64,000 nucleotides of DNA from Pontibacter vulgaris (lineage in GTDB: Bacteria; Bacteroidota; Bacteroidia; Cytophagales; Hymenobacteraceae), in NCBI RefSeq assembly GCF_022758145.1, contig NZ_JAJVDH010000005.1, forward strand, positions 310,001 through 374,000, given 5' to 3'. The translations under genes were made by a program, and so were the position numbers. The notes beneath the pieces were generated by a model. The model was not told the origin of the DNA, searched no databases, and saw only the letters and a list, made by a program, of their open reading frames with translations. This document shows, in pieces, positions 29,217-64,000 of this stretch (positions are counted from its first letter, which is position 1; each line of letters starts with the position of its first letter).

Positions 29217-30176
29217 TTAAGCGTAAGTTTTATCTTTTCGGGCTTTCGCAGGAGATTTTTCGATAAATTCATCCTGAAAGGCCTGTGCCAGCGTAAGCAA
29301 GGCGCGCATCTGTTCTTTTCGGTTAAGCTGGTTTGGAGGGCCGCCAGGTGTGTTATTTGCATCTACAATATAGATACGGCCATCTGTACGGTCTCTTAAT
29401 ACATCCAGTTCGCCATACTCCAACCCTAATTTCTGACAGAAGCTGATTATGTTCTGTACTTCTGTAGGGCTTAACACAGCTTCTGTTGGCGTAATAACTA
29501 CGCGGCTGTTCTTACTGGCAAAGCGGCTTTCAAGAGGGCGGTTTTTCATGTAAACAAATGGTATGCGGTTACCAATTATAGGAACCCTTATGTCTTCTAC
29601 CTCTTTGCTGTTTGCCTGGTTGTTAATCAGCTTATGGTACACGTAACCTTCTTCAGGTTTTGCTATCGGGCAGGTTATAGTTGTGCCATCATGCACAGCG
29701 TTCTTATTTCCTTTTTTTACACATACGCCTTGGTATACCAGTGGGTCTACAGCCATACTATAACCAAAAACTTCTTCCAATACCTCGTTTACGCGCTCTT
29801 TGCTGATATCTGTACAATGGTAATTTAGTACGTGTTGTTCTGCTGCAACAGCTTCCAGTTTAGGTACATATTCTTTAAAAGTGTCATCAATCCAGAACAC
29901 TGCAAAAGAATAGGCATCTGAAAGATTAGTAGTTACTTCGTAGCCAAGTATAGCCAGTAGTTTGCGCAGCATGCTGCGGTTGCGGGGGCCTTCCGGGTAA
30001 AACAAAGCAACTTTTAAAGACTCTTTCTGCTTTCGCTTTATCTTACGGGATAAAAAAGAGAACATCAGATTGTCACACGAAATCTGGTATTGGCGGTGAT
30101 ACTTATAAAATGTAGGGTTTTTATCAAGTCGTTCTAAAACTGACTTTTTAAGTGTGGGTAGAAAATTATTTCCCAT
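29217..30176 (-). CDS. ATP-grasp-like protein in the polysaccharide operon
   Basis: I chose the ATG at 30176 (MGNNFLPTLKKSVLERL); the frame runs on to 30224. The 319-residue product has an N-terminal basic region, a pre-ATP-grasp-like domain (VALFYPEGPRNRSMLRKLLA, FAVFWIDDTFKEY) and a C-terminal half resembling ATP-grasp ligases. The most telling stretch is YGELDVLRDRTDGRIYIVDA followed by NNTPGGP, which fits the Mg-ATP binding acidic residues of that fold. ATP-grasp enzymes make amide or peptide-like bonds, so addition of an amino acid or acyl group to a sugar is conceivable. The glycine-rich lid loop is not obvious, so it could be a divergent or inactive member. It lies between Wzx and a GT4. 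Confidence 0.6.
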   Translation of the reverse strand: MGNNFLPTLKKSVLERLDKNPTFYKYHRQYQISCDNLMFSFLSRKIKRKQKESLKVALFYPEGPRNRSMLRKLLAILGYEVTTNLSDAYSFAVFWIDDTFKEYVPKLEAVAAEQHVLNYHCTDISKERVNEVLEEVFGYSMAVDPLVYQGVCVKKGNKNAVHDGTTITCPIAKPEEGYVYHKLINNQANSKEVEDIRVPIIGNRIPFVYMKNRPLESRFASKNSRVVITPTEAVLSPTEVQNIISFCQKLGLEYGELDVLRDRTDGRIYIVDANNTPGGPPNQLNRKEQMRALLTLAQAFQDEFIEKSPAKARKDKTYA

Positions 30177-30296
30177 GGCGTTTAATTTCAATTTACTCGG
30201 AAAATTGTATGGTGCATCAAACACAGGTTTTTTTAAAATAAATAACCTATGCTATTAAATGTTTATAGTTGCTAGTAGCCAGGTACCTTTGTGTTG

Positions 30297-31817
30297 TTAT
30301 TTCATGGCTAACAGGCTTGACACCCGAAGAAGAATTTTACCTTTAAAGGATGTCTCGTTGATATTAAAAGTATTGGTAATACGGTAATAGATCTCCGATT
30401 TAATATGCTTGTTAGGACTCATAAAAAGTAAGAGCACCAGCATCAGAAAACCTACTACAGCTTCTGCAATTAATATGACCAGTTGCGGCATATTTAAATT
30501 CTTCAACCCATAAGCAGCCAGGTAAATAGCGCCTCCTGTTATTATGGCAGTGCCTGTAGCAGGTGCGTATGCCTTTAATACAGCCTTTAGCCTAAGCCCG
30601 AGAACTTTTCTTGTAACAAAAGCATAGGCAATGGTTCTGAAAAAAACTGAAAGCAGGAATGCTGTTGCAAAGCCCGTTACGCCAAAACCTTTAAGTAAGT
30701 ATAGCAAAATAACCATTGCTGTTACTGAGCCAATCTGAAGCACAGCCTTTATATTAAGTGTATTAGTAGCCTCGCAAATAATGCCTGCAAAATGGTTTAG
30801 CAGTAACAATGGTATTGCAAGTGCAAGTATTTGTAGAAGTGGAATGGCAGCTGTCCACTTATCGCCCAGTACAACAAGTACGATCTGTTCGGATGCAACA
30901 GCAGCTCCAACGCAGGCCGGTATTATAAAATAGGCCGCCAGCGATATTACAGTTACATACGCTTTTCGCAGCCTGGCTGTTTCTGACTGGAGCCTGCTAA
31001 AGGCCGGGAAAAGTACCCTTGATATACTTACTGTGATAGAATGAATAGGCAGGTTAACCAGCATATAAGCTCTATTATATAAACCAAGGGCACTGGCGCC
31101 CATCAGCCTGCCAATAAGTATGGTATCAAGGTTGCCTCCAAGAAACTCAAGAAAACTGATGAACGAAACCCTTCCGCCAAAAGCAAGCAAGGGCTTATAG
31201 TGTACCCAGCTGAACAGAAAAGCTATGTTGTGGCGAACGGTTGCATAAGATAATATGGCAACTATAAATGCAGATGATAAGCTGGCGTAAACAAGACTCC
31301 ATACGCCCATGCCCATATAAGCCGATGTAATGCCTATTCCGATATATCCAATAACATAAGCACTTATCTCCACAACAGCCATGTTCTTAAAGCGCATTTC
31401 TCTCCTGAGTAAACTAACCGATGTAGACGACAGACCAGAAATAACAAAAGACAAAGCCATTACCCGGATTACTGGAATTACTTCTTCATTTTTAAAAATG
31501 TAGATGGATAAGGGCGCAATCAACCACATAATCGCGAAGAAAATAATGCCAAGGAACAACGATGAGGTAAACGCAGAGCGAATATCTTCTTTAGAAAGCT
31601 GCTCTTTCTGTATCAATGCCTGGCTCATGCCCATTTGGGCAAAATAACTGGCAAAGCGTAATACTACCCCGGAAAGTGCTACCAAACCAAAAGCCGCAGG
31701 ATCTAAGAGCCTTGCCATAATGGCGGTATAAATAATCTGCATCAGGGAGGTAGTAATGGTAGAAGCTGTACTCCACTGGATGCCTGATACTGTTTTGGAA
31801 GTTAAATTTTTACTCAT
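30297..31817 (-). CDS. wzx: Polysaccharide flippase (Wzx/MOP family)
   Basis: I chose the ATG at 31817 (MSKNLTSKTVSGIQWST), typical of this family's N-terminus; the frame extends to 31853. The 506-residue product has about 14 hydrophobic segments and the MOP-superfamily opening GIQWSTASTITTSLMQIIYTAIMARLLDPAAFG, followed by LFLGIIFFAIMWLIAPLSIY. It should flip lipid-linked repeat units across the inner membrane to the Wzy-like polymerase. It follows the tyrosine kinase Wzc after 63 bp, completing a Wza-Wzc-Wzx order. Proteins of this length are often labelled lipopolysaccharide biosynthesis protein. Confidence 0.88.
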   Translation of the reverse strand: MSKNLTSKTVSGIQWSTASTITTSLMQIIYTAIMARLLDPAAFGLVALSGVVLRFASYFAQMGMSQALIQKEQLSKEDIRSAFTSSLFLGIIFFAIMWLIAPLSIYIFKNEEVIPVIRVMALSFVISGLSSTSVSLLRREMRFKNMAVVEISAYVIGYIGIGITSAYMGMGVWSLVYASLSSAFIVAILSYATVRHNIAFLFSWVHYKPLLAFGGRVSFISFLEFLGGNLDTILIGRLMGASALGLYNRAYMLVNLPIHSITVSISRVLFPAFSRLQSETARLRKAYVTVISLAAYFIIPACVGAAVASEQIVLVVLGDKWTAAIPLLQILALAIPLLLLNHFAGIICEATNTLNIKAVLQIGSVTAMVILLYLLKGFGVTGFATAFLLSVFFRTIAYAFVTRKVLGLRLKAVLKAYAPATGTAIITGGAIYLAAYGLKNLNMPQLVILIAEAVVGFLMLVLLLFMSPNKHIKSEIYYRITNTFNINETSFKGKILLRVSSLLAMK

Positions 31818-31880
31818 AAAGGGGGTAAAAAAGGAGTAAGAAAGAGGCAACACGTAAATAGGTGCTGCCTCTCCTGAAGA

Positions 31881-34268
31881 CTATACGTAATAGCCCTTTG
31901 CCTTTGCTTTGTAGCCGTATTCGTACGTTTTGTCGTAGTTTACGTCGTTTATGATCATGTACATATTCTGCAGTTTGCCCTGATCATATAAGTCGTTGAT
32001 CGGCTCCAGCAGGTTTTTCTGTGTATACTTATGCCGTACCACATAAATAGTTGCATCGGTGTAGCGCATCATGATAAAATACTCTGATACAAAGCCGATT
32101 GGAGGCGTATCAAGTATAACGTAATCATATTGTTCCTTGAGCAGTTCTATTAGCTGGTGCATTCTTGGCAGCTCAAGCAGTTCAATTGCGTTGGTCGGGA
32201 TAGGCCCTGAACTAATAATGTCCAGATTAGGGTGCTCGCTTTGCTGAATTGCATCGTTCAGCGTAATGTCGTCGGTTATATAAGTAGATAGGCCCACTTC
32301 ATTGTTCAGGTTAAAGTAGTTGCCAAAGGTTGGCTTGCGCATATCTGTTTCTATTAACACCACCTTTTTGCCAGATGAGGCCAGTTCAAGGCTCAGGTTA
32401 ACAGAGCAGAATGTTTTACCCTCGCCTGAAATAGAAGATGTTAGCCCTATTACTTTTGTGCCAGTATTGGAAGCCAGGTACTGCAGGTTAATTCTGACAG
32501 ATCTGAACGACTCTGCAATGGCCGAGCGCGACTGGTGCAGCATCACCAGGCCATCTTTTTTATCAGGGTTATGGGCAATTACACCCAGAAACGGAATGTC
32601 GGTAATTGCTTTTAAATCTTCTTTACCTTTTATAGTATCATTGGCTTTATCCGAAACCACAATCAAACCTGCCGGAATAATAAGCGCTACCAGAAACGAT
32701 AGTGCAAAAATGCCGCTGGCTTTCGAGTTTACAGGTGTAGTGCTTGCTAATCTGGCCTTGTCAATAACTTGTTTATCAGTTGTATTGGTGGCAAGCGCAA
32801 TAGCAGCCTCTGTGCGTTTCTCCATCAGGAAGGCATAGTTCTTATCGTTGAATGCGCTTTTGCCCTCCAGGTTAGATAACTGACGCTCCTGATCTGGCAT
32901 GCTGCTAAGAGTACCCTTAATCTGTGCAATGCGGCCTTGTACCTCATTTAAGGAAAGATCTGAGGAGCGGACCGTATTTTTGATGTTTTCGATAAGAGCC
33001 TGGCGTGTATTGCTGATTTTTTCGTCCAGCACTTTAATGATCGGGTTATCGCTGGTTGCTGTAACACTATAACCGGCTTTTTGTCTGCCAAGCTCAGCCA
33101 GCTGCATAATCAGGTTGTTAAGTACCGGGTTTTCGGCACTGGCAGAAGAGGGAGCTATAACCCTGGATAAATCGCTGTTGGTTTTAACAGTGCTAAGCAG
33201 ATCTGAATAATATCTTTTATTAAGTATGATCTTAGCACGCTCTGATTCCAGTGCACTTAAAGTTTCGAAGCTGGTATTTGACTGGAAACCTACGTTCATG
33301 AGGTTGCGCGAAGAACGGTAGCTGGATAATGCAGCTTCGCTTTTCTTTAGTGAATCTGAGATTGTAGCCAGCTGCCCTTCAATAAACTTCAGGGTTTTAA
33401 GGCCGTTCTCATTCTTCATTTTCAGGTCATGCTCGATGTATACTTCCGAGATGGCATCCAGGAACTTAATATCTTTACCAGGTACTGGTGTTTGTGTAAC
33501 CAGTTCCAGTACCTTAGAGTCTTTGTTTATCGGGTAAGCCTGTAACTGAGCCTGGTAGTTAGCAACAAGTGCTTCCGGGTTGTTTATGATGAAATAGTTT
33601 TTGCCAGGAGGCAATGCTGCATCGTGGGCAGAAGTATCGCTCTTAACAACAGTAAAGCTCAGGTTGCCATCGTTATACTTTTCGCCAAAGGCCAGTTCTT
33701 TTTCAATCTTTACCTGGGATAACTTATCAGTAGTGCGGCTTTCTTTAAAATCATAAACGGCAGCATCTGTAGCATCCATCGTGATTTTATACTTGTTGCC
33801 TTCTACAAACTCTATATAAACCGGCTGGCCTACAACCTGGCGGCTGCTGGAGTCTATTACTACTTTGTATGGCGCAGTTTCATATTGTTCTTTTACAACA
33901 AGGTCGCCTAGCTTGTTTACCCAGCTATCTTCTATGTTGTAGTAAGAAACTTCAAAGTCAAGCCTATCCAGTGTTTGCTTGATAAATGAATTTGATTTGA
34001 GTAAACCGATCTCATCATCTACTCTTATCCAGTTCTCCTGCTTTCCATTGATAAGGGTGAGTAGTTCCTGAGCCTGTTTAGAGCCAGTAGCTTTATCACC
34101 GATCATTAAGGTAGCTTTAACCTGGTATAGGGGGGTAGAGGTTTTTACATAAAGAAAAGCGGCTGCCATAATAAGTAACAGGGAAATAGCAAAGTAATGC
34201 CACTTTTTTCTGAACTTAAACAACCAACTCTTCAGATCAATCTCTCTCTCCTTGTTAGTTTTTTTCAT
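31881..34268 (-). CDS. wzc: Polysaccharide co-polymerase/tyrosine autokinase (Wzc-like)
   Basis: This 795-residue protein has two membrane segments (about 24-42 and 520-540) bracketing a periplasmic Wzz/coiled-coil domain. The cytosolic BY-kinase domain has Walker A (GLTSSISGEGKTFCSVNLSL), Walker A' (VVLIETDMRKPTFG) and Walker B (YVILDTPPIGF). The C-terminal tail holds a tyrosine cluster (about six Tyr within the last 20 residues), the autophosphorylation sites of this family. Wzc controls chain length and, through cycles of phosphorylation, export through Wza. The Wza gene ends five bases upstream, so the pair is tightly coupled. Length and architecture are normal for Bacteroidota, where co-polymerase and kinase are fused. 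Confidence 0.94.
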   Translation of the reverse strand: MKKTNKEREIDLKSWLFKFRKKWHYFAISLLLIMAAAFLYVKTSTPLYQVKATLMIGDKATGSKQAQELLTLINGKQENWIRVDDEIGLLKSNSFIKQTLDRLDFEVSYYNIEDSWVNKLGDLVVKEQYETAPYKVVIDSSSRQVVGQPVYIEFVEGNKYKITMDATDAAVYDFKESRTTDKLSQVKIEKELAFGEKYNDGNLSFTVVKSDTSAHDAALPPGKNYFIINNPEALVANYQAQLQAYPINKDSKVLELVTQTPVPGKDIKFLDAISEVYIEHDLKMKNENGLKTLKFIEGQLATISDSLKKSEAALSSYRSSRNLMNVGFQSNTSFETLSALESERAKIILNKRYYSDLLSTVKTNSDLSRVIAPSSASAENPVLNNLIMQLAELGRQKAGYSVTATSDNPIIKVLDEKISNTRQALIENIKNTVRSSDLSLNEVQGRIAQIKGTLSSMPDQERQLSNLEGKSAFNDKNYAFLMEKRTEAAIALATNTTDKQVIDKARLASTTPVNSKASGIFALSFLVALIIPAGLIVVSDKANDTIKGKEDLKAITDIPFLGVIAHNPDKKDGLVMLHQSRSAIAESFRSVRINLQYLASNTGTKVIGLTSSISGEGKTFCSVNLSLELASSGKKVVLIETDMRKPTFGNYFNLNNEVGLSTYITDDITLNDAIQQSEHPNLDIISSGPIPTNAIELLELPRMHQLIELLKEQYDYVILDTPPIGFVSEYFIMMRYTDATIYVVRHKYTQKNLLEPINDLYDQGKLQNMYMIINDVNYDKTYEYGYKAKAKGYYV

Positions 34269-34273
34269 GACTG

Positions 34274-35044
34274 TTATTTGAATGTGTTATATATCAAAAC
34301 GAGTGTAGTAATACCAGAGAACACCACGCCCAATAAGGTAAGGTTGTTTCGTCTTGTGTAAGAGCTTAATGGTTGTACGTAAATGGCGTCATTTGGCAAC
34401 AGGTAGTAATACTTGGATTGCATCAGGTTTGGGTCTGTTAAATCGAGTAGTACAACTTCTGATCCTGAGGCAGTTGGGCGTATCAGTTTAACCATTTTTC
34501 TGTTACCGGATTGGTCAATATCGCCTGCCAGGGCAAGGCCCTCCAGAATAGTTGCTTTCTCATTAAAGATGTAGTATTGGCCTGGTCTTCTAACATCGCC
34601 CAGAACGGTAACACGGAAGCTGGTCAGCTTCACAATTACATTTGCATTTTTAATGTACCTGTCTATATGTTGTTGCACTGTTTTCTGGGCATCATTTACA
34701 GTAAGGCCCGCTACTTTAACTGTGCCCACAGTTGGCAGGTTGATAGAGCCGGATTCATCTACAGAATAACCGTTCAGAAAAAGGAAACCCGGGTCTGAAT
34801 TTCCAAGCTGGTTCGGGCTGTTCGAGATGTTGAAAATGCTGGAAATCTCTGGCTGTATACTTTGTACTTTTATAGAGAGCACATCGTTTGGCTGAATTTT
34901 ATAGATGAACTTTTCTGTAGTTACCGGGTATGGTTTGTCTTTTGAAAAATTATCGTTCTGCAGATATACCAAGTCTTTGTTTGATACGCAGGAAGTAGCA
35001 AAAGCTATAAGCAGAAGTAGAAGAAAACTATGTTTCTTTAGCAT
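34274..35044 (-). CDS. wza: Polysaccharide export outer-membrane lipoprotein (Wza-like)
   Basis: This 256-residue protein starts with a lipoprotein signal (LLLLLIAFATSCVSNKD, lipobox Cys about residue 19). It has a polysaccharide export domain (FIYKIQPNDVLSIKVQSI; INLPTVGTVKVAGLTV) and an SLBB-like domain (VTVLGDVRRPGQYYIFNEKA). A C-terminal hydrophobic stretch (LLGVVFSGITTLVLIYNTF) may cross the outer membrane, as the Wza C-terminal helix does. It is shorter than enterobacterial Wza (about 380 residues), as is usual in Bacteroidota. It is the first gene of the long minus-strand operon, so the promoter should lie in 35045-35230, where the sequence is AT-rich and I cannot place it. Confidence 0.92.
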   Translation of the reverse strand: MLKKHSFLLLLLIAFATSCVSNKDLVYLQNDNFSKDKPYPVTTEKFIYKIQPNDVLSIKVQSIQPEISSIFNISNSPNQLGNSDPGFLFLNGYSVDESGSINLPTVGTVKVAGLTVNDAQKTVQQHIDRYIKNANVIVKLTSFRVTVLGDVRRPGQYYIFNEKATILEGLALAGDIDQSGNRKMVKLIRPTASGSEVVLLDLTDPNLMQSKYYYLLPNDAIYVQPLSSYTRRNNLTLLGVVFSGITTLVLIYNTFK

Positions 35045-35230: not shown

Positions 35231-36541
35231 TCAGCCTCTTACGAAGAAAGGAATATTGCCGGTGGCTACTTTCTGGCTGGCATCAGTAACATAAATATAA
35301 AGCCTGTAAGGGCCTTCTTTTTCAGGTACTTGTAATTTTAATTTGCCCGTGCCTTTGTCCTGCGTTAGCGACCATACCGGGGCGGGCTCTATTTCCTTGT
35401 TATACTTGTCTTTTTTATACCTTCCTTCCGGTCTGATTTCCCATGTATAGGCAAGCTGGTTGCTTCTGTCATCCTGTGTTTCTATCTGTACCTGTATGGG
35501 TGCACCGGGCTTTGTATAAATAGCTGATATGGCAGAACTGCCGTTCCAATATAACTTTTTAATGTGCGGAGCTGCATCAGCAGGGGGTTTGCCAGTCCAT
35601 ACCTGCTGCATGGCATCTACGGCTTCAGTTGGGTTGCCAGCTGCGGTAAACATGCTGAAGAGGGTAGGAGTGCGTTCCTGTTTTTTGCCCCAGTAAAACA
35701 CGTAAGAGCCTATACACTGCTCTGCATCCTGCTGTATGTAACTATAGTTTTGCCTGTAAAGTATGGCTTTTTCGGTGCTGGTTTTCTCTACGGTAGCATT
35801 CCAGGGGGTTTTTATTTCTTGGTCTTCCCAATAGCCCGGTGGCCCCCATTCCGATACGATATAAGCACCATCCCAACCCCACACAGGGTTCTTGATTTTA
35901 CCTGCTACATTTTTTAGATCGTTAAAAGCGTTAATGGAAATAATGTCTAGATTGGGGGCAAGCATGCGCAGAAACGGCATGTTAAGTCTGGTATAACCAG
36001 CAAGGGTAGTAGTGGTAGGGTGGTTAGGATCTTCGGCTTTTACAACGCCGGCAAGCTCGTTTACCAGCAGCCAGGCTTTGATATCAGGATATACCTGGTG
36101 TACCTCGTTGCCTACAGCCCACATCAATAAAGCAGGGTGGTCTTTATAACGCCTCACATCCCGTTTTATAGCCCGTAGCTGCCTCCTGCGCGATAGCTCA
36201 CTTTTATAGTTTCTGACTGTTAGGCCCAGTGTTACGGTTATACCGTTTTTATAAGCTGAGTCAAGCACTTGCTGGGCATCTTCGGTGTGCCAGGTGCGGA
36301 TAGAGTTGCCGCCAACTCTTTTAAGTTCTGAAAGATGCGAGCTTCCTGCTGCCCCTTTTATGTAATAAGGCTTGCCGCCACGGTACAGGCTATACTTATC
36401 GCCTACTTTCCGAACCTCTACTTTCAGGGAATTATTGTTGTCTGTTCTGGTAGGTAATTGTTTATTAACTTGGTTATCAGTAGATAAAGAAGGGAGGGTA
36501 AGAAGGTAAGTATAAATTAACCAGAAAAAGGCAATATTCAT
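35231..36541 (-). CDS. Secreted GH2-type TIM-barrel glycoside hydrolase-like protein
   Basis: This 436-residue protein has an N-terminal signal or anchor (MNIAFFWLIYTYLLTLPSLS) and a (beta/alpha)8 domain similar to GH2 catalytic barrels. Visible motifs are YYIKGAAGSSHLSELKRVGG, the acid/base motif LLMWAVGNEVHQ and the nucleophile motif YIVSEWGPPGYW. The C-terminal domain ends LQVPEKEGPYRLYIYVTDAS, which matches the end of the divergent fusion protein starting at 36676 (LPEKASAYRLYLYVSDKN). The barrel also resembles that protein's third domain, so the two are paralogous. It probably hydrolyses or rearranges the locus polymer in the periplasm or outside. Substrate unknown. Confidence 0.75.
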   Translation of the reverse strand: MNIAFFWLIYTYLLTLPSLSTDNQVNKQLPTRTDNNNSLKVEVRKVGDKYSLYRGGKPYYIKGAAGSSHLSELKRVGGNSIRTWHTEDAQQVLDSAYKNGITVTLGLTVRNYKSELSRRRQLRAIKRDVRRYKDHPALLMWAVGNEVHQVYPDIKAWLLVNELAGVVKAEDPNHPTTTTLAGYTRLNMPFLRMLAPNLDIISINAFNDLKNVAGKIKNPVWGWDGAYIVSEWGPPGYWEDQEIKTPWNATVEKTSTEKAILYRQNYSYIQQDAEQCIGSYVFYWGKKQERTPTLFSMFTAAGNPTEAVDAMQQVWTGKPPADAAPHIKKLYWNGSSAISAIYTKPGAPIQVQIETQDDRSNQLAYTWEIRPEGRYKKDKYNKEIEPAPVWSLTQDKGTGKLKLQVPEKEGPYRLYIYVTDASQKVATGNIPFFVRG

Positions 36542-36565
36542 TTATTTCTATAATTTAATTTGAAA

Positions 36566-36582
36566 GCAAACTTTCCGTTTGC
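36566..36582. promoter_or_regulatory. Inverted repeat in the divergent GH / GT-GH promoter region
   Basis: GCAAAC and GTTTGC flank a 5-bp spacer in the 134-bp region between the divergent genes starting at 36541 and 36676. It is a candidate operator for co-regulating both, but six-base arms can arise by chance. Confidence 0.3.
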
Positions 36583-36675
36583 AATACGTATACCCATGCA
36601 TATTGTTCCTGGAACCTCTGTTCAAGCACATAAAAAGCAAGCTCATACAATTTATTTTACTGCAGTTTCTTATTT

Positions 36676-39600
36676 ATGCCCACATTATTGCGAGTGCCCG
36701 CTAAACCCAGAGCACAAAAACCAATTATAAAATCGGCAGCTCCTACCAAAAGAGAAAAACTGACTATCCGGCTGATGATCTGGCTGGGGCTGGGCTTTAT
36801 GGGCATTTTTGTATGGTGGTTTTTTAATCCTGAGTTTATTGGCTATAAGCCTCTTTACTGGGTACTTACGTCGGTTTTGATGTTTAAGCTGCTCCGGATG
36901 CTGCACGAATGGTATCACTATTATAACATAGGAGTACCTGAACCTCTGGCCAAATGGCGCCCCCGAACAGTGGATATGCTGACTACTGCCTGCCCTGGCG
37001 AACCACACGAAATGATTCTGGAAACGCTGCAGGCAATGGTTAACGTAACGTACCCGCATACAACTTACCTTTGTGATGAAGGCGATGACCCTGCGTTAAA
37101 AGAAGCCTGCCGCAAAATGGGCGTGGTACATGTTACCCGAACCATTAAAAAAGACGCTAAAGCCGGCAACATAAATAATGCACTGCAACTTGCCACCGGC
37201 GAAATAGCTGTTATTCTTGATCCTGACCATGTGCCTGACCCGCAGTTCCTGGACAGAGTTTTACCATACTTTGAAGATGAAGAAGTAGGGTATGTACAGG
37301 TTGTGCAGGCCTATAAAAACCAGGATGAGAGCCTGATAGCCCGCGCTGCTGCCGAACAAACCTACGTTTTTTACGGCCCGATGCAGATGTGTATGCACAC
37401 GTACGGTACAGCTCAGGCCATAGGAGCTAACTGCTGTTTCAGGCGTAGCGCTCTGGATAGTATAGGGGGGCATGCAGCGGGCTTGTCAGAAGATATGCAC
37501 ACGGCCATGCAACTGCATGCCAAAGGCTGGAAATCGGTTTATGTGCCTGAAATATTAACACGCGGCCTGGTGCCTGCCTCGTTATCGGCATACTACAAGC
37601 AGCAGCTGAAATGGTCGAGAGGTACGTTTGAGCTGCTATTTGTTACCTATCCGAAGTTATTCTCAAAATTTACCTGGCGCCAGAAACTGCATTATTTTAC
37701 GCTGCCGCTCTACTATCTTTTCGGGCTTTTCGACCTGCTAAGTATAGCCGTGCCTATTGTGTCGCTGTTTTTGGCTAAAGTGCCATGGCAGTTTGATATG
37801 GAGGAATTTGCCCTTGCTTTTTTCCCTTTAATAGGTGTATCTATGCTGATACGGCAGTATGCACAGCGCTGGCTTTTAGAAGAACATGAACGTGGGCTTC
37901 AGCTTTTTGGCGGCCTGATGCGTGTGGGTACGTGGTGGGTATTTTTATTGGGCTTCGTATATGCTGTATTGCGCGTAAATGTGCCTTACATTCCTACGCC
38001 AAAAGATGATAAGCTGAATAACGAATGGCTGCTAAGTATGCCCAACCTGGCCGTAAGCCTGCTAAGTATAGCAGCTGCTATTTATGGCTTATCCATCGAC
38101 TGGAGCCCTTACAGTATCTTTATGGCGGGTTTTGCCTTGTTTAACGCTACCTTGTTTGGTATTGTGGTTTTGATGGGGCAGCAACGTTTCCTGGTAGGGG
38201 CACAGCAATGGCTTAGTAAATCAACTTTTGATAAATACCTGTTGCACCCAGTTCATAACAAGGTAATAAACCTAAGAAACTGGGCCTATAGTTTTATGCG
38301 ACATAAAGCAGCTACGTTGGCTACATGTATTGTTATAGCATTTATAAGTATGGCCTGGGTGCAGCAAAATCTTACAACCGATCCGAATACCCTGGCTACG
38401 CCCGAAGTTAAAGATACAGGCGGATTTTATACCGGCATTTACCTGCCACAACTTGATCGGAAGTTAAGTATAAATGAGGTAGAAAAGGTTGAGAAAACCG
38501 TTAGCAAGGAGTTTAATATCGTTTCTTTTTACCACGGATGGGGCGAGCAAAGTATAACCGGTTTTCCTGTAGAAGAACTTCAGCAGCTTGGTGCACGAGG
38601 AGTTACCCCCATGATCACGTGGGAGCCGTGGCCATTTCATAAAGGCGAAACCAAACCGGTAATGGCTGCCATACTTGCCGGAAATTACGATGAATATATA
38701 AAGAGGTATGCCCAACTTATTGCAAAAACCGGCGTGCCCATGTACCTGCGCTTTGGCCACGAACCTGAAAATCCATTTTACCCCTGGTCGCCGGAGTATG
38801 GCAACTCACCTGAAAAATATGTGGCAGCTTGGCGGTATGTTGTAGATAAATTCAGGCAGGAAGGTGTAACAAATGTGGCATGGGTCTGGAACCCGTGGAA
38901 GCATACGACAATGCTGGATTATTACCCGGGAGACGACTATGTGGATTGGATTGGGGTTACAGCGCTTAATTACGGGCAGGCATACTCAGATCATGCCTGG
39001 CGTACTTTTGATGATCTATACGAGCCTTTCAGAAGCCACCTGACACGCATTAAGAAACCTGTAATGTTGGCTGAATTCGGAACAACTGAATTCGGAGGCG
39101 ATAAAGCTGCATGGCTGAAATATGCGCTCTACAACATCAGTTTCGACTATCCTGAAATTAAGGCTGTCGTATTTTTTAACTCAGACCGGGATAAGAACTG
39201 GCCGAACGAGTGGCGACCGGACTCGACTGCATCTTTTATAGATTGGTCATTCACAAAATCAACCCAAACCAGTAAGGTAGTAAAGCGCGCCCTGGCACAA
39301 AAGCATTATAAAGAGCAACCGTATCATAGCCAGCAGCCAGCTTCAGAAGTTACCTCTGCCTATACTTCAAAATTTGTGAAAGGAAACGCGGGTAACTATA
39401 CTTTGCAGGTACAGGGCAAGCCTTTCTATATTAAAGGTGTTGTCTATAATCCGTCACATAACTGGCGCGATGGCAACCACCCGCTCACACGCGATCAGCT
39501 TGAGAAAGACCTGCATCTGATCAAAAAAATGGGAGCCAATACAATACGTAGGTATAGCTCCAGCTTTTACGACCGCAACATACTTACTGTAGCCGAAGCA

Positions 39601-40620
39601 AACGACCTGAAAGTGCTTTATGGTTTTTGGCTTAGCCCTGATGTAGATTACAATGCCGATACGCTGGAATTAGAAAAGTATATGCAGGAAGTTGAAAAGG
39701 TAGTACAAACCTATAAAGATAACCCTGCTGTGCTGGGCTGGAGTGTGGGCAACGAAGTATGGCAGCTGCTTGACCTGTACTATGAACAACCCTACCTGGC
39801 CAGGGTGCGGCAGCAATATGTAGCTTTTGTTGAAAAACTGGCAATACGCATACATAAACTGGATCCTGACAGACCGGTATTTACAGTTCTCAGGCACAAC
39901 GACCAACTGGCAGCTGCCTTGCGCGACTTTAAGACCGGTGCTCCATCCATTGATGTGATCAGTATAAGCTCGTTTAAAGAAGACGATTTAAGCGGACTTG
40001 ATGAAGTTATGGCAAAACATTATCCTGAGAAGCCTTATATGGTTTCGGAGTTTGGCTACAAAGGTTACTGGAACCCTGATTACTCTAATGTTAAGGCAAA
40101 AGACAAAGCTATAGAAGAAGACCAGGATTACGAAAAAGGCCGCTATTATAAGCAACAGTGGGAGCAACACATAAAAGCGAATAAAGGCCGAAATATAGGT
40201 GGCTTCGCATTTTGCTGGCGCGACCGCATGGAGGGCACAGCCACCTGGAGTGGTATAACCGATTTTAAAGGACGCCTGAAGCCAACTTATTTTGCCATGA
40301 TGGAGGCTTACACCGGCCAGAAAGTAAAACCTGTACTTCCAGCAGTATCAATTCAATCCAGAATCAAAGGATACTACACTGGCCAAACCTATACTTTTAA
40401 AGTAGCTATGGCTGCAAAGGCACCCAAAGGCTTAAAGCATGAATGGTACCTGTATGGTAACGAATACCTGGATAAAATTGGCAGCCTGGAAAAAATGAAT
40501 GGCGGAAAGCAAGTTCGCATACGCCTTCCAGAAAAGGCATCGGCATACCGTTTATACTTGTATGTATCCGATAAGAACGGGAATGTAGTTACTGCCTCGT
40601 TGCCTGTTGCTGTTAACTAA
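36676..40620 (+). CDS. Fusion of BcsA-like membrane GT2 with GH26-like and GH2-like domains
   Basis: This 1314-residue protein has two N-terminal membrane helices (about 32-50, 58-75), then a cytosolic GT2 domain of cellulose-synthase type. It shows CDEGDDP (133-139), DPDHVP (182-187), the general base region SEDMHT (271-276) and QQLKWSRG (309-316), where QxxRW has Lys for Arg. About five further helices follow (340-500), then a last one near 545-562. The rest should be periplasmic: a GH26-like barrel (about 580-870; RFGHEPE with Glu696, WVWNPW, MLAEFG with Glu800), a GH2-like barrel (about 905-1215; GNEVWQ with Glu1027, VSEFGYKG with Glu1125) and a C-terminal Ig-like domain. A synthase carrying its own hydrolases suggests synthesis, extrusion and trimming of a beta-glycan. 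Domains are seen; the product is inferred. Confidence 0.85.
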   Translation: MPTLLRVPAKPRAQKPIIKSAAPTKREKLTIRLMIWLGLGFMGIFVWWFFNPEFIGYKPLYWVLTSVLMFKLLRMLHEWYHYYNIGVPEPLAKWRPRTVDMLTTACPGEPHEMILETLQAMVNVTYPHTTYLCDEGDDPALKEACRKMGVVHVTRTIKKDAKAGNINNALQLATGEIAVILDPDHVPDPQFLDRVLPYFEDEEVGYVQVVQAYKNQDESLIARAAAEQTYVFYGPMQMCMHTYGTAQAIGANCCFRRSALDSIGGHAAGLSEDMHTAMQLHAKGWKSVYVPEILTRGLVPASLSAYYKQQLKWSRGTFELLFVTYPKLFSKFTWRQKLHYFTLPLYYLFGLFDLLSIAVPIVSLFLAKVPWQFDMEEFALAFFPLIGVSMLIRQYAQRWLLEEHERGLQLFGGLMRVGTWWVFLLGFVYAVLRVNVPYIPTPKDDKLNNEWLLSMPNLAVSLLSIAAAIYGLSIDWSPYSIFMAGFALFNATLFGIVVLMGQQRFLVGAQQWLSKSTFDKYLLHPVHNKVINLRNWAYSFMRHKAATLATCIVIAFISMAWVQQNLTTDPNTLATPEVKDTGGFYTGIYLPQLDRKLSINEVEKVEKTVSKEFNIVSFYHGWGEQSITGFPVEELQQLGARGVTPMITWEPWPFHKGETKPVMAAILAGNYDEYIKRYAQLIAKTGVPMYLRFGHEPENPFYPWSPEYGNSPEKYVAAWRYVVDKFRQEGVTNVAWVWNPWKHTTMLDYYPGDDYVDWIGVTALNYGQAYSDHAWRTFDDLYEPFRSHLTRIKKPVMLAEFGTTEFGGDKAAWLKYALYNISFDYPEIKAVVFFNSDRDKNWPNEWRPDSTASFIDWSFTKSTQTSKVVKRALAQKHYKEQPYHSQQPASEVTSAYTSKFVKGNAGNYTLQVQGKPFYIKGVVYNPSHNWRDGNHPLTRDQLEKDLHLIKKMGANTIRRYSSSFYDRNILTVAEANDLKVLYGFWLSPDVDYNADTLELEKYMQEVEKVVQTYKDNPAVLGWSVGNEVWQLLDLYYEQPYLARVRQQYVAFVEKLAIRIHKLDPDRPVFTVLRHNDQLAAALRDFKTGAPSIDVISISSFKEDDLSGLDEVMAKHYPEKPYMVSEFGYKGYWNPDYSNVKAKDKAIEEDQDYEKGRYYKQQWEQHIKANKGRNIGGFAFCWRDRMEGTATWSGITDFKGRLKPTYFAMMEAYTGQKVKPVLPAVSIQSRIKGYYTGQTYTFKVAMAAKAPKGLKHEWYLYGNEYLDKIGSLEKMNGGKQVRIRLPEKASAYRLYLYVSDKNGNVVTASLPVAVN

Positions 40621-60427: not shown

Positions 60428-61528
60428 ATGAACATAACCGTACCCACCTTATTGCTCGATAAAGCAAAATGTCTGCAGAACATTGATATGATGGTTGAGA
60501 AGGCAAGCCGCAATAACATCAGGTTGCGCCCGCATTTTAAAACGCACCAGTCGGCGCAGGTGGGCGAGTGGTTCCGGGAGCGTGGCGTGGAGGCAATAAC
60601 GGTTTCGTCGTTGCGGATGGCGCAGTATTTTGCCCGCCATGGCTGGACAGATATCATGGTGGCCATTCCTGTCAATCTGCGGGAAATAGAGCTTATAAAC
60701 GAGCTGGCAAGTGCTATCAGTCTGCATGTAGTGGCCGTGAACCCGGAAACAGTTACGGCGCTGGCGGAACTGCTGGAAATCCCGGTAAACCTGTGGGTGA
60801 AAATAGATACGGGCTACCACCGTACCGGCTTGCAACCACAAGACCATACTACACTCGACGAAGTAATAAATAACGTGGAGAACAGTGATAAGCTGATATT
60901 TAAAGGTTTTCTGGCGCACGATGGCCATACCTATAAACAAACCGAAAAAGAAGCTATCGTTACTATTTACAACACTTCTGTATACCTGCTGCAGCTTGTT
61001 CGCGACCGCTATAAAACACGCTTCCCGCAGCTGCAGCTTTCCATTGGCGATACGCCTTCCTGCAGTGTGCTGCAAAGTATAAACGGGGTAGATGAGATAC
61101 GGCCCGGCAATTTTGTTTTCTACGATCTGACGCAGCAGCACATCGGTTCCTGTAGTTTTGAACAGATAGCAGTTTGTATGGCCTGCCCTGTTATTGCCAA
61201 ACACCCGGATCGGTTAGAGATCATACTCTATGGCGGCAGCGTTCATTTCTCTAAAGATGTGTTACCGCAGCAAAATGGCGCTTTATACGGTAGGGTAGTG
61301 GAGTTAACAGAAAAAGGCTGGACACTGCCGGTTAATGGTATAGAGCTGGTATCGCTATCGCAGGAACATGGTATAATAAGAGCTAACGAAGAGCAGTTTA
61401 ACAAGTATAAAATTGGCGACCTGATCTATGTTTTGCCTGTGCATTCGTGCCTTACTGCCGATTTAATGAAAGGCTACCTGACTTTGGAAGGAGAGCGACT
61501 GGAGCATTTGTCGGGCGTTCAGGTATAA
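60428..61528 (+). CDS. D-threonine aldolase-like PLP enzyme (alanine-racemase fold)
   Basis: This 366-residue enzyme has the fold-type III PLP layout. The Schiff-base lysine is Lys38 in RLRPHFKTHQSAQ, where D-threonine aldolases and D-serine dehydratases share RPH.KTH. The barrel includes LWVKIDTGYHRTGL and a phosphate-binding SIGDTPSC. The C-terminal domain carries the metal-binding His and Cys in YVLPVHSCLTADLM. These enzymes cleave D-threonine or related D-3-hydroxy amino acids to glycine and an aldehyde, or dehydrate D-serine; which applies cannot be read here. It is cytosolic and ends 16 bp from the convergent peptidase gene. Confidence 0.88.
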   Translation: MNITVPTLLLDKAKCLQNIDMMVEKASRNNIRLRPHFKTHQSAQVGEWFRERGVEAITVSSLRMAQYFARHGWTDIMVAIPVNLREIELINELASAISLHVVAVNPETVTALAELLEIPVNLWVKIDTGYHRTGLQPQDHTTLDEVINNVENSDKLIFKGFLAHDGHTYKQTEKEAIVTIYNTSVYLLQLVRDRYKTRFPQLQLSIGDTPSCSVLQSINGVDEIRPGNFVFYDLTQQHIGSCSFEQIAVCMACPVIAKHPDRLEIILYGGSVHFSKDVLPQQNGALYGRVVELTEKGWTLPVNGIELVSLSQEHGIIRANEEQFNKYKIGDLIYVLPVHSCLTADLMKGYLTLEGERLEHLSGVQV

Positions 61529-61544
61529 GTATAAAATTTAGCAA

Positions 61545-62405
61545 CTATAACCGGATAATGGCATTGTATACACCGTTTACCACCTCAGCCATTTTATCGA
61601 AGTCCAGGGTATCTATCGTATCGGTAGGCAGGTGATAATTCGGGTTACGTAGAAAAGCCGAGTTGTTTATCATGACCGCATCAATGTTATACTTCCAGTA
61701 ATTACGATGATCGGATAAACCCACAAGGCCAAATGCTTCGGGTAAGTTAACGGCGTAAACAGGAACCTGGCAATGCGGCTGCATCAGGTCACGCACTTTT
61801 TGAGTAAATGCCTCGTCGCCTTGCCTGCTAACTACAACTATAAAATTACCTGTATCGGGGTAATACTTACTAAATTCAGGGCTGGGAAAACGTTGCGAAC
61901 CTGGTGTATCGGAATAATAGCCGATCATATCATAACAAATCATGGCCTTTACCTGCACACCAGCCTCTTTTAATGATCTGGCATGTACCGCGCTTCCCAT
62001 GTTTGAGCTACCAAAGTATGGCGGCTCTTCGAGGCAATAAGCTACCAATTCTATAGTATGTGTTAATTCATTTTGCCTCTCGTTCAGGAGTCGGGCTATT
62101 TCCAGTAACCCAGCTACTCCACTGGCATTATCGTCTGCGCCAGGTTGGTCTCCACATACATCATAATGGGCACCTACTACAATTCTTTCCGCTGACCTAC
62201 CTTCAAAAATGGCTGTAATATTTTTGTAAGGATTGCCATCAACCTGAAACGGCTGCTCTTTTACCTGGCAATTTAACTTCCTGAATTCAGATATAATATA
62301 GGTCGCGGCTTTGTTCAGCGACTCCAGTTGCAGGTAATTTCGGGGAGGCGAGATGGAGGTAAGTGTTTCCACATCGTTGTATAATCTGTCAGGGCTGGCT
62401 TTCAT
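61545..62405 (-). CDS. M28-family metallopeptidase
   Basis: I chose the ATG at 62405 (MKASPDRLYNDVETLTSI); the frame extends to 62426. The 286-residue product has the M28 zinc motifs: the His and bridging Asp of VVGAHYDVCGDQPGADDNAS, Glu in AYCLEEPPYFGS, Asp in ICYDMIGYYSD and a late His in LVGLSDHRNYW. M28 enzymes remove N-terminal residues from peptides. No signal peptide is seen, so it would act in the cytosol. It is convergent with the D-threonine-aldolase-like gene, only 16 bp apart, without a clear terminator between them. Confidence 0.88.
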   Translation of the reverse strand: MKASPDRLYNDVETLTSISPPRNYLQLESLNKAATYIISEFRKLNCQVKEQPFQVDGNPYKNITAIFEGRSAERIVVGAHYDVCGDQPGADDNASGVAGLLEIARLLNERQNELTHTIELVAYCLEEPPYFGSSNMGSAVHARSLKEAGVQVKAMICYDMIGYYSDTPGSQRFPSPEFSKYYPDTGNFIVVVSRQGDEAFTQKVRDLMQPHCQVPVYAVNLPEAFGLVGLSDHRNYWKYNIDAVMINNSAFLRNPNYHLPTDTIDTLDFDKMAEVVNGVYNAIIRL

Positions 62406-62459
62406 GTTTCCTTTATATATAAGCATTAGAGGTTTTTACATACTGTGAAAGCTGATTTT

Positions 62460-62501
62460 AAAGTATAAAGGCGCAACTCCATAGCTGCGCCTTTATACTT
62501 T
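62460..62501 (-). terminator. Terminator-like hairpin built from two AAGTATAAA motifs
   Basis: A perfect 16-bp stem (AAAGTATAAAGGCGCA with its complement) surrounds a 10-nt loop. Both arms end in the AAGTATAAA motif. It lies 18 bp past the disordered-protein gene stop and upstream of the peptidase gene on the same strand. Confidence 0.72.
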
Positions 62502-62519
62502 GTACTTCTGGTCTATAGT

Positions 62520-63272
62520 TTAATACCGCTGGAAATCCCGGGCATCTCTCTCGAAATGCTCGCTGTAGCCGCTTGGGCCATAACCACCCCGATAAAAGCC
62601 GCTCATGCCATAAGGCTCGTCGTAACGGTTACTTTCGTAGCGACCCAGCGAGCCATAGTCGCCACGGGGTTCGCTGCGTGTGGTGCGGTTGTAGCCGCTA
62701 CCCATGTAATTGCCCTGCTCCTGGCTATAACCTGAAGGGCGGTTTCTGTCTGTGTTAAATTCCGAACGGTCCTGCTGGCTTCCCTGGAATCTGTCAGAGC
62801 TATAAGACTCACGTTGGGATTCTTTTCCGGAAGATCCCATGCCATGGCTGTCGTAATCGCTTTGGTAGCCGTAAGAGCGATGCCCGCTCGGCGCATACCC
62901 TTCCTGCCGGGCATGTTGTGGCGAGCCCATGCCGCTGTCAAAATTCAGATGTGTGTCAGAATCGTAGTGGCGCTGCGATGGCCTGCCGCCCCTTATATCT
63001 CCAAAGCCCTGTGCGCCGCCGTAGCTGCCCATATTGCCATAGTTGTAAGAGGTGCTGTAAGTGCCGGCAATGTCCTGGCGGCTTTCCCGATGTGGTTGTG
63101 CAAATCTATCGCTGCTCCGAGACATATCAGACCAACTGCCGCGGTTTCTGTTCCCATAGTTTTCAGGAAGGTTGCGTTCGCTACTGCTTTCCGGGTGCCG
63201 GAAGCGCTCCGAACGGTGAGTATGGTAGCCGCTAAAGTTCTCATATAAGTTTTGATCTTGTGGTCTGTCCAT
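62520..63272 (-). CDS. Low-complexity, probably disordered Gly/Ser/Tyr/Arg-rich protein
   Basis: This 250-residue protein has no hydrophobic core, signal or membrane segment. It is rich in Gly, Ser, Tyr, Arg, Asp and Gln, with repeated short pieces such as SYGY, YGSLGRYES and SGYNRTTRSEPRGDYGS. I recognise no family. The composition (Tyr and Arg spaced by Gly/Ser) resembles prion-like and phase-separating RNA-binding proteins and also some stress-linked bacterial proteins, but this is an analogy only. Uninterrupted length, its own ATG and a following terminator-like hairpin support a real gene. It stands alone between the peptidase and a partial nucleotidyltransferase-like gene. Confidence 0.65.
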   Translation of the reverse strand: MDRPQDQNLYENFSGYHTHRSERFRHPESSSERNLPENYGNRNRGSWSDMSRSSDRFAQPHRESRQDIAGTYSTSYNYGNMGSYGGAQGFGDIRGGRPSQRHYDSDTHLNFDSGMGSPQHARQEGYAPSGHRSYGYQSDYDSHGMGSSGKESQRESYSSDRFQGSQQDRSEFNTDRNRPSGYSQEQGNYMGSGYNRTTRSEPRGDYGSLGRYESNRYDEPYGMSGFYRGGYGPSGYSEHFERDARDFQRY

Positions 63273-63534
63273 AGCCTGTAATGTTTAATTGGTAAATGTA
63301 AAACTTAACTGTACTACTTAAAATAACGCAGCTCAAGCCGGCGAGTTGGTATAGCACGGGTATTTATTATGGTATAGGCAGCCGTGCCCGGATATAACAA
63401 TTTTTAAGGCAAAGGAGTAAATGCATCTACTCTGGCAAGAGAAAAAGCATCGGTTTTTAAAGCTAAAGGCATAAAAACCAATGCTAACAAGCCATAGCAT
63501 CTTGTACAACTAACCATTTGATTTGAAGAGCAAT

Positions 63535-64000
63535 ATGGCTAAGGAAACGAAGTCTAAAGAAGATAATAAAAAGCTGGAGGCACAGGGGTTTTACCGCGAA
63601 GCGCTGGAATTGCTGAACAAAAGCGGTTGCCCATACTTAGTAGGAGGCGGATTTGCATTGCGCGAATACACGGGCATCATACGCGAAACAAAAGACCTGG
63701 ACGTGTTCTGCAAAGCCGGCGAATACCCGCGTATACTTAAAGTATTTGCAGAAGCTGGTTACGAAACCGAGAACTCAGATGCCCGCTGGCTGGCCAAGGC
63801 AATAAAAGGCGAGCATTTTGTTGACCTGATCTTTAACAATCCCGGCAACTTTTGCCCCGTAGACGATACATGGTTCGACCATGCTGTGAAAGGCGAATTA
63901 TGGGGCGTGCAGGTGCAGTACATACCGGCCGAGGAGCTGATCTGGTGTAAAACCTACGTACAAAACCGAGAGCGTTTCGACGGAGCCGATATCAACCATA
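63535..64000 (+). CDS. Nucleotidyltransferase-fold protein, N-terminal part
   Basis: The ATG at 63535 opens a frame that runs off the window; about 155 residues are visible. After a lysine-rich start it shows CPYLVGGGFALREYTGI and ETKDLDVFCKAGEYPRI. A GG motif followed by a DxD-type acidic motif is the hallmark of the minimal nucleotidyltransferase superfamily (AbiEii/MNT-like and related proteins). Later residues include HFVDLIFNNPGNFCPVDD, whose Asp could complete the metal site. The C-terminal part and any antitoxin or kinase partner lie outside, so its role (toxin-like, antibiotic modification or other) cannot be judged. Confidence 0.75.
   Translation, partial: MAKETKSKEDNKKLEAQGFYREALELLNKSGCPYLVGGGFALREYTGIIRETKDLDVFCKAGEYPRILKVFAEAGYETENSDARWLAKAIKGEHFVDLIFNNPGNFCPVDDTWFDHAVKGELWGVQVQYIPAEELIWCKTYVQNRERFDGADINH

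Follow-up and report, generated by a model that had tools for sequence, protein, structure and literature searches.

A GT2-GH26-GH158 fusion protein and its GH158 partner gene in Bacteroidota: a candidate system for making and editing a glucan with beta-1,3 bonds

Why would a polysaccharide synthase carry two glycoside hydrolase barrels on its own chain, and which polymer would they meet? The question is raised by a gene in a 64,000-nucleotide stretch of the Pontibacter vulgaris genome (assembly GCF_022758145.1, contig NZ_JAJVDH010000005.1, positions 310,001 to 374,000), referred to here as the window. The gene encodes a glycosyltransferase family 2 (GT2) synthase fused to barrels of glycoside hydrolase (GH) families 26 and 158, and a stand-alone GH158 gene lies divergently beside it. 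Our favoured answer, which we consider reasonably probable, is a system in Bacteroidota for the synthesis and editing of a glucan that contains beta-1,3 bonds and is perhaps a mixed beta-1,3/1,4-glucan. The pairing of GT2 with GH158 is the strongest functional clue, because GH158 has a characterised member that is an endo-beta-1,3-glucanase. The features concerned, in window coordinates, are as follows.

36676..40620, + strand: GT2-GH26-GH158 fusion protein, 1314 amino acids, in one frame
36937..37881, + strand: GT2 catalytic domain and first following helices, residues 88-402, BcsA-like (phmmer, PF13641)
37600..37614, + strand: QQLKW, residues 309-313, where the QxxRW signature is expected (alignment)
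38308..38373, + strand: extra transmembrane helix, residues 545-566, between synthase and barrels (hydropathy, AlphaFold model)
38419..39333, + strand: GH26 barrel, residues 582-886, lichenase-like (PF02156; CtLic26A by sequence and fold)
38761..38763, + strand: E696 codon, aligned with CtLic26A residue 109
39073..39075, + strand: E800 codon, aligned with CtLic26A residue 222 (Gln in entry 2cip)
39370..40362, + strand: GH158 TIM barrel, residues 899-1229 (9oro and 6pal by sequence; fold)
39754..39756, + strand: E1027 codon, aligned with the acid/base position E137 of BuGH158
40048..40050, + strand: E1125 codon, aligned with the nucleophile position E220 of BuGH158
40363..40617, + strand: C-terminal part, residues 1230-1314, matching the Ig-like domain of GH158 proteins (6pal/9oro alignment)
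35231..36541, - strand: divergent stand-alone GH158 protein, 436 amino acids, catalytic E146 and E231 present (9oro, 6pal)
36542..36675, no strand: intergenic region of 134 bp between the divergent genes (gene coordinates)

The fusion frame starts with ATG and contains zero internal stops, and it is intact in the window's own assembly (G000:C5:346676-350617). Many independent assemblies hold three-part relatives of 1202-1356 amino acids in one frame. An artefact of assembly joining separate genes, which the first-pass annotation of this DNA had named as a possible objection, is therefore very unlikely, and the frame is genuine. That annotation, made from the sequence alone, was correct about the single frame of 1314 residues, named E696, E800, E1027 and E1125 exactly and put the final helix near residue 555; we place it at 545-566 from the AlphaFold model and a hydropathy peak at 545-563. 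Parts of the protein were assigned by Pfam and NCBIfam profile searches and by sequence searches against solved structures. Pfam matched GT2 families at residues 112-316 and in overlapping stretches, and Glyco_hydro_26 at 675-774.

The divergent stand-alone GH158 gene, absent from the first-pass annotation, looks like a constant partner of the synthase. Its product matched the solved structures 9oro (E 1.5e-77) and 6pal (E 2.1e-62). A scan of genome contigs returned 385 relatives in 433 stretches; the locus figures refer to the best 80 of the 385, with flanks of up to 6 kb, shorter at contig ends. These loci are from Bacteroidota, including Pontibacter, Algoriphagus, Chitinophaga, Pedobacter and flavobacteria, and from one Balneolia metagenome-assembled genome. 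In an evenly drawn phylum sample, 37 of 296 genomes gave a match to the window protein (E 1e-30), in many cases in one domain only. The stand-alone gene was present in 75 of the best 80 loci, the five without it being L028, L031, L034, L050 (a 3.5-kb contig) and L057; neighbour-cluster counts of 78/80 for this gene and 80/80 for the synthase are inflated by matches of the synthase's own GH158 part, and 75/80 is used here. Among the 75, the gene lies upstream on the same strand in 51, divergently in 15, downstream in 3 and convergently in 6 (in 4 cases at a distance of about 2.5-3 kb), and 49 of the 51 same-strand upstream genes overlap the synthase or sit within 4 bp of it. In the window's family (150 genomes, synthase called at E 1e-100), GH158 was found in 56 of 58 genomes with the synthase versus 34 of 92 without it (Fisher 9e-15, which ignores kinship). 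The corresponding figures for the window's genus were 37/37 and 5/13. A promoter and terminator scan gave a result near the shuffled background.

The synthase part bears out the earlier description of a processive GT2 with a BcsA-like membrane fold. The PF13641 match scored 95.9 bits against a cut-off of 27, and residues 88-402 matched the BcsA entries 5ej1 and 4hg6 at E ~6e-40 in a phmmer search of solved structures. BcsA is the nearest solved relative of this part, and the comparison by fold gave Z 30.5 over 448 aligned residues. Chain building and extrusion by one GT2 are established for BcsA. Among annotated NCBIfam models the best was TIGR03030 (CelA), which at 167.9 bits missed its equivalog cut-off of 699.1; PRK11498 likewise missed (137.2 bits, cut-off 992). 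The Pfam search at E 0.01 gave 8 matches to the fusion protein, with neither a PilZ nor a GH17 domain among them. The protein has the acidic motifs CDE, DPD and SED. The available portion of one study gives D, D, D, QxxRW as the signature of the GT2 beta-glucan synthases BcsA, CrdS and BgsA (PMC6821405), and here QQLKW stands in the last position.

The first barrel passes the GH26 model PF02156 (44.6 bits, cut-off 20.2). Its nearest solved relative is the lichenase CtLic26A, at E 1.2e-36, with the next GH26 entry at 3.7e-9; the fold match to CtLic26A has VIA Z 34.0 and root mean square deviation (rmsd) 1.9 over 275 aligned residues. We take residues 109 and 222 of CtLic26A to be its catalytic pair, as supported by Gln222 in the Michaelis-complex entry 2cip. 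By this alignment, the acid/base and nucleophile glutamates of GH26 appear to be present here as E696 and E800. GH26 is known above all for mannanases. In the accessible part of a survey of the family, two of its five branches hold characterised beta-mannanases (PMC6556568). A mannanase reading of this barrel is the weaker one, given 1.2e-36 for the lichenase and 3.7e-9 for the next GH26 entry. The proximity to a lichenase favours glucan over mannan, so that of the mannan- or glucan-like product first proposed the glucan option has gained ground and the mannan option has lost it.

Profile and structure comparison of the C-terminal halves, suggested with the first-pass annotation, returned glycoside hydrolase folds for both (GH26 Z 34.0, GH158 Z 32.2). 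Both barrels and their intact glutamate pairs thus stand, and so does the GH26 assignment of the first; the second had been called GH2-like and is better called GH158, because GH158 structures fit best by sequence. The last part of the protein matched 9oro at E 4.7e-28 and BuGH158 (6pal) at E 1.3e-21, and the GH158 fold match (VIA Z 32.2) had an rmsd of 2.5 over 292 aligned residues. The GH158 entries matched by fold include one soaked with a mixed-linkage oligosaccharide. A GH158 model was not among the Pfam and NCBIfam matches of the fusion protein. The GH2 TIM-barrel model PF02836 matched residues 909-1129 with 43.6 bits (cut-off 21). In GH2 proteins, N-terminal sugar-binding and Ig-like domains precede the barrel. 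PF02836 is the only GH2 domain that Pfam matched here, and GH2 was rejected in favour of the better-fitting GH158 structures. GH72, which shares the clan GH-A fold, was rejected as well: PF03198 passes its cut-off (37.2 bits, cut-off 25.9) over residues 901-1053 only, but the GH158 matches are stronger and span the whole part. N1026, E1027 and E1125 align with the Asn-Glu acid/base motif and the Glu nucleophile of BuGH158, which the available part of its description presents as an endo-beta-1,3-glucanase inactivated by each of N136A, E137A and E220A, and where the Ig-like domain of GH158 proteins is also described (PMC7157763).

An AlphaFold2 model of residues 30-1229, built with 63 relatives, had a predicted local distance difference test (pLDDT) score of 90.5 and a predicted template modelling (pTM) score of 0.82 over its 1200 residues; the C-terminal residues 1230-1314 lie outside the model. 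Together with hydropathy it gives seven membrane helices (31-49, 58-83, 349-366, 375-399, 455-474, 478-501 and 545-566), and, by analogy with BcsA, we take 410-431 as an interfacial helix. With a cytosolic GT domain and an odd number of helices, the last of them extra, the barrels and the C-terminus are predicted to be periplasmic. In the mechanism that we propose, the cytosolic GT2 would polymerise a nucleotide sugar, most likely uridine diphosphate glucose (UDP-glucose), and thread the chain through its own membrane channel in the manner of BcsA. The periplasmic GH26 and GH158 barrels would meet the emerging chain and cut, release or rejoin pieces of it, and the stand-alone GH158 would act on the same polymer. 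The two barrels and the stand-alone GH158, if they share one polymer, make beta-1,3-glucosyl bonds in it probable. Lichenase-like and beta-1,3-glucanase-like sites together would fit a beta-1,3/1,4-glucan, and the product may be such a mixed-linkage chain. The GT2 and the stand-alone GH158 would form the core of the system, with the fused barrels as accessory editors or guides.

We compared the active sites across relatives. From 100 synthase candidates, 8 shorter than 780 amino acids were left out, giving 92 rows, and removal of 2 duplicates gave 90 distinct proteins: the window's, 79 from the best-80 scan and 10 from the 296-genome phylum sample. Scoring of both barrels was possible for 84; L050, ended by its contig, was excluded, and L100, also cut by its contig, was kept, with Asp already at E1027. 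A pair was counted as lacking when at least one of its two Glu was replaced, mild single changes included, so that Gln for E800 in L033 and Asp for E696 in L049 each counted. L012, L105 and one L061 protein have Pro in place of the preceding His and, judged on their Glu letters, were scored as GH26-intact. Both Glu pairs are kept in 17 of the 84 two-barrel proteins, the window's included, while the GH158 pair is lacking in 56, the GH26 pair in 11 and both pairs in 0. Outside this count, L111 has Gln for E696, and L112 and L113 have all four Glu. Asp stands at E1027 in 21/92 rows and at many changed sites, so a lacking pair cannot be equated with loss of activity. The stand-alone GH158 proteins have both Glu in 112 of 113 distinct copies, the remaining copy being ended by its contig. 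A Chitinophaga GH158 barrel without the Glu pair gave a model with pLDDT 87.4, and its top five fold matches were all GH158 (Z 25.3-26.7). The first-pass annotation had proposed two trimming or transglycosylation activities in one chain. This agrees with the intact Glu pairs of the window protein and is not a family rule, because 67 of the 84 lack one pair and 35 of the 37 genomes with a synthase in the genus have a GT2 form only.

In a tree of the GT2 domain, all 56 proteins lacking the GH158 pair fall within one clade of 58 (Shimodaira-Hasegawa-like approximate likelihood ratio test, SH-aLRT, 100), so this site probably changed once, as judged from its distribution on the tree. On the same tree, at least 5 changes are required to explain the GH26 state, single-barrel proteins included. 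Double loss would be expected in 7.3 proteins and was found in 0 (Fisher 1e-6, uncorrected for kinship). A tree-aware independent-pairs test offered only 2 pairs on starred branches and 3 on all branches. Since 2-3 independent pairs cannot reach significance, alternating loss was dropped as a statistical claim; we describe it as a pattern, not a proven rule, that rests on few evolutionary events. It has exceptions in the single-barrel proteins L013, L014, L015 and L016, which have no complete Glu pair, and in the GT2-only genes.

The synthase is modular even within the genus, where it occurs in 37 of 50 sampled genomes (E 1e-100). In 35 of the 37 it is GT2-only, with frames of 598-631 amino acids that terminate shortly past the extra helix. 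The three-part form is confined to the window's genome and G410, and G410 has both forms. In one of the 35, L129 (G420:C34), the GT2-only frame is broken by a stop. GH158 adjoins the synthase in 27 of 29 loci read with flanks of up to 1.5 kb, four of these loci being three-part. In 6 of 16 larger stretches (L139, L140, L141, L143, L145 and L147) the GT2-only/GH158 pair is flanked by homologs of the window genes 60428-61528 and 63523-64000. In the window, 2 kb separates these two genes and the pair is missing there; the end of the three-part gene is 20 kb from the 60428-64000 site. A low-complexity frame rich in Gly, Ser, Arg and Tyr (62520-63272, - strand) adjoins the site that holds the GT2-only/GH158 pair in several members of the genus. 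A second GT2 tree grouped the 26 GT2-only proteins in one clade (SH-aLRT 100) that excludes the window protein, whose position it left unsettled. These placements suggest that a GT2-only gene was likely replaced by a three-part gene of other origin.

Apart from the synthase-GH158 pair, no neighbour cluster occurred in more than 13 of the 80 loci, and an exporter gene is thus not among the constant neighbours; the product may stay in the periplasm or leave through a remote exporter. In the window, an exopolysaccharide export block with Wza-like, Wzc-like and flippase genes (29217-35044, - strand) lies beside the pair. As a partner it was rejected, with homologs of Wza in 6/80 loci and of Wzc in 5/80. 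The same genome encodes a 589-residue protein with two GH26 copies (G000:C7:211578-213344; L002:550-2319), the second with both Glu and the first with Gln for the nucleophile. Genes of this type were near the synthase in 14/80 loci, with two GH26 matches in 13 of the 14 and one in L052; a third obligate component was rejected, as the gene was found in 5 of the 150 family genomes (E 1e-60) versus 58 with the synthase (E 1e-100). Directly 3' of the synthase, L026:9864-12290 encodes an 808-residue protein of the sulfatase/phosphotransferase superfamily (PF00884, scanned for L026 only). Related frames of 182-836 amino acids bring this cluster to 10 loci in all, among which the C/S-x-P-x-R signature was not found. 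On the Sinorhizobium meliloti plasmid pSmeSM11b, L106 holds a GT2 gene with separate GH26, two DUF995, galE and UDP-glucuronate decarboxylase genes, presumably the ApsS arabinose-polymer cluster. It extends the association of GT2 with GH26 beyond Bacteroidota and keeps a non-glucose product possible.

Several observations weigh against a glucan-making and glucan-editing system. In 35 of the 37 genomes with a synthase in the genus, the synthase has no barrels. The QxxRW signature reads QxxKW, with Lys in 92/92 aligned rows (90 distinct). GH158 genes occur in 34 of the 92 family genomes that are negative for the synthase, so GH158 alone is no mark of the system. The L106 GT2, with 31% identity to the window's, has genes for a separate GH26 protein and for a UDP-glucuronate decarboxylase as neighbours. 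Finally, the GT2 domain is about equidistant (27-32% identity) from BcsA, from the probable BgsA of S. meliloti pSymB, identified by our reading of tag order (27%), and from rhizobial GT2s; the 30 listed plasmid matches showed 28-32% identity, and BgsA-like and BcsA proteins lie at a similar distance. Because these relatives are about equally far, the GT2 sequence settles neither sugar nor linkage, and a linkage deduced from it was set aside as not decisive.

These observations, and the fate of the active sites, leave room for other explanations. The fused barrels might be mostly non-catalytic guides or docking modules, with catalysis left to the stand-alone GH158, so that the intact sites in the window matter little. 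The many proteins lacking the GH158 pair (56/84) or the GH26 pair (11/84) speak for this, as do the Chitinophaga barrel that still models as GH158 without its pair, the Glu pair kept by stand-alone copies and the stand-alone gene kept beside GT2-only synthases. Yet 0 of 84 two-barrel proteins lack both pairs, the window protein keeps four Glu and many changed sites hold Asp, and we regard the idea as possible on balance though not probable. We are similarly tentative about barrels that mainly transglycosylate, which would turn a beta-1,3 chain into a periplasmic or short glucan by cyclising, branching or shortening it. The available part of one report describes pseudomonad GT2-GH17 proteins with the same plan and another GH family (PMC10237404), the second barrel scores above the threshold for GH72, a glucanosyltransferase family, and the neighbourhood has no constant exporter gene; but GH158 fits that barrel better, the GH26 and GH158 relatives are named as hydrolases, and a remote exporter is possible.

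Other products are less probable. A mannan, or a chain with arabinose or xylose in it, would agree with the mannanase association of GH26 and with the L106 neighbourhood of GH26, UDP-glucuronate decarboxylase and galE; the lichenase-like GH26, the constant GH158 partner and the lack of a prominent sugar-modifying gene among neighbour clusters, few of which were annotated, make it unlikely. Periplasmic hydrolase BcsZ belongs to cellulose systems. A variant cellulose synthase that incorporates BcsZ-like hydrolases would explain why CelA is the best annotated NCBIfam model and BcsA the nearest solved GT2 relative, but the large shortfall from the CelA cut-off (167.9 against 699.1 bits), the unmatched PilZ domain and the beta-1,3-glucanase family of the partner make it highly improbable. 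A glucan with beta-1,3 bonds thus stays our preferred product.

A protein of the GT2-GH26-GH158 type was not found described in the open-licence papers searched. Proteins that couple one BcsA-like GT2 to a periplasmic GH domain are already known, and the present protein varies that plan. The closest parallel in plan is the pseudomonad Orphan/NdvB synthase, which likewise joins a BcsA-like GT2 and a periplasmic TIM-barrel hydrolase in one membrane protein, the Orphan GT2-GH17 proteins being proposed, in the part of the source available, to make cyclic beta-glucan (PMC10237404). There, one GH17 barrel lies N-terminal to the GT2, whereas here GH26 and GH158 follow it and a separate GH158 gene is present. 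BcsA/BcsZ shares the synthase fold, the polymer channel and a periplasmic hydrolase in the system; the window protein differs in its lack of a PilZ match, its QxxKW, its fused hydrolases and their GH families. BgsA, the mixed-linkage beta-glucan synthase of Sinorhizobium (PMC5567048, PMC9495663), is also a GT2 and BcsA relative without a recognisable PilZ for which a similar product is proposed, but it differs at 27% identity (the probable BgsA of pSymB), has a tail that binds cyclic di-GMP and carries no fused barrels. A mixed-linkage glucan synthase is also reported, in the part available, from Romboutsia (PMC10374906). CtLic26A and the laminarinase BuGH158 share barrel folds and catalytic residues with the window protein, and neither is part of a synthase. 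The opgGH system resembles ours as a compact pair of synthase and glucan hydrolase genes; as described in the available part of the source, OpgG and OpgD are GH186 beta-1,2-glucanases (PMC10514313), unlike the partner here, which is GH158. As a speculative and somewhat doubtful extension, GT2 and the stand-alone GH158 could be an unrecognised, widespread Bacteroidota counterpart of opgGH that makes a beta-1,3 or mixed beta-1,3/1,4-glucan retained in or near the periplasm, the GH26 and GH158 barrels having been joined to it as built-in editors and later eroded alternately, with at least one working site kept in a two-barrel synthase.

In synthase-dependent polysaccharide systems, the membrane synthase is often accompanied by periplasmic hydrolases that are separate proteins and whose role is unclear. 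Here, related synthases carry two barrels, one or none, with sites complete or changed, which makes the role of hydrolases in synthesis a matter for comparative experiment. Bacteroidota are known mainly as degraders of mixed-linkage and beta-1,3-glucans. If the product of this system is such a glucan, they would include a large and apparently unstudied group of beta-glucan makers.

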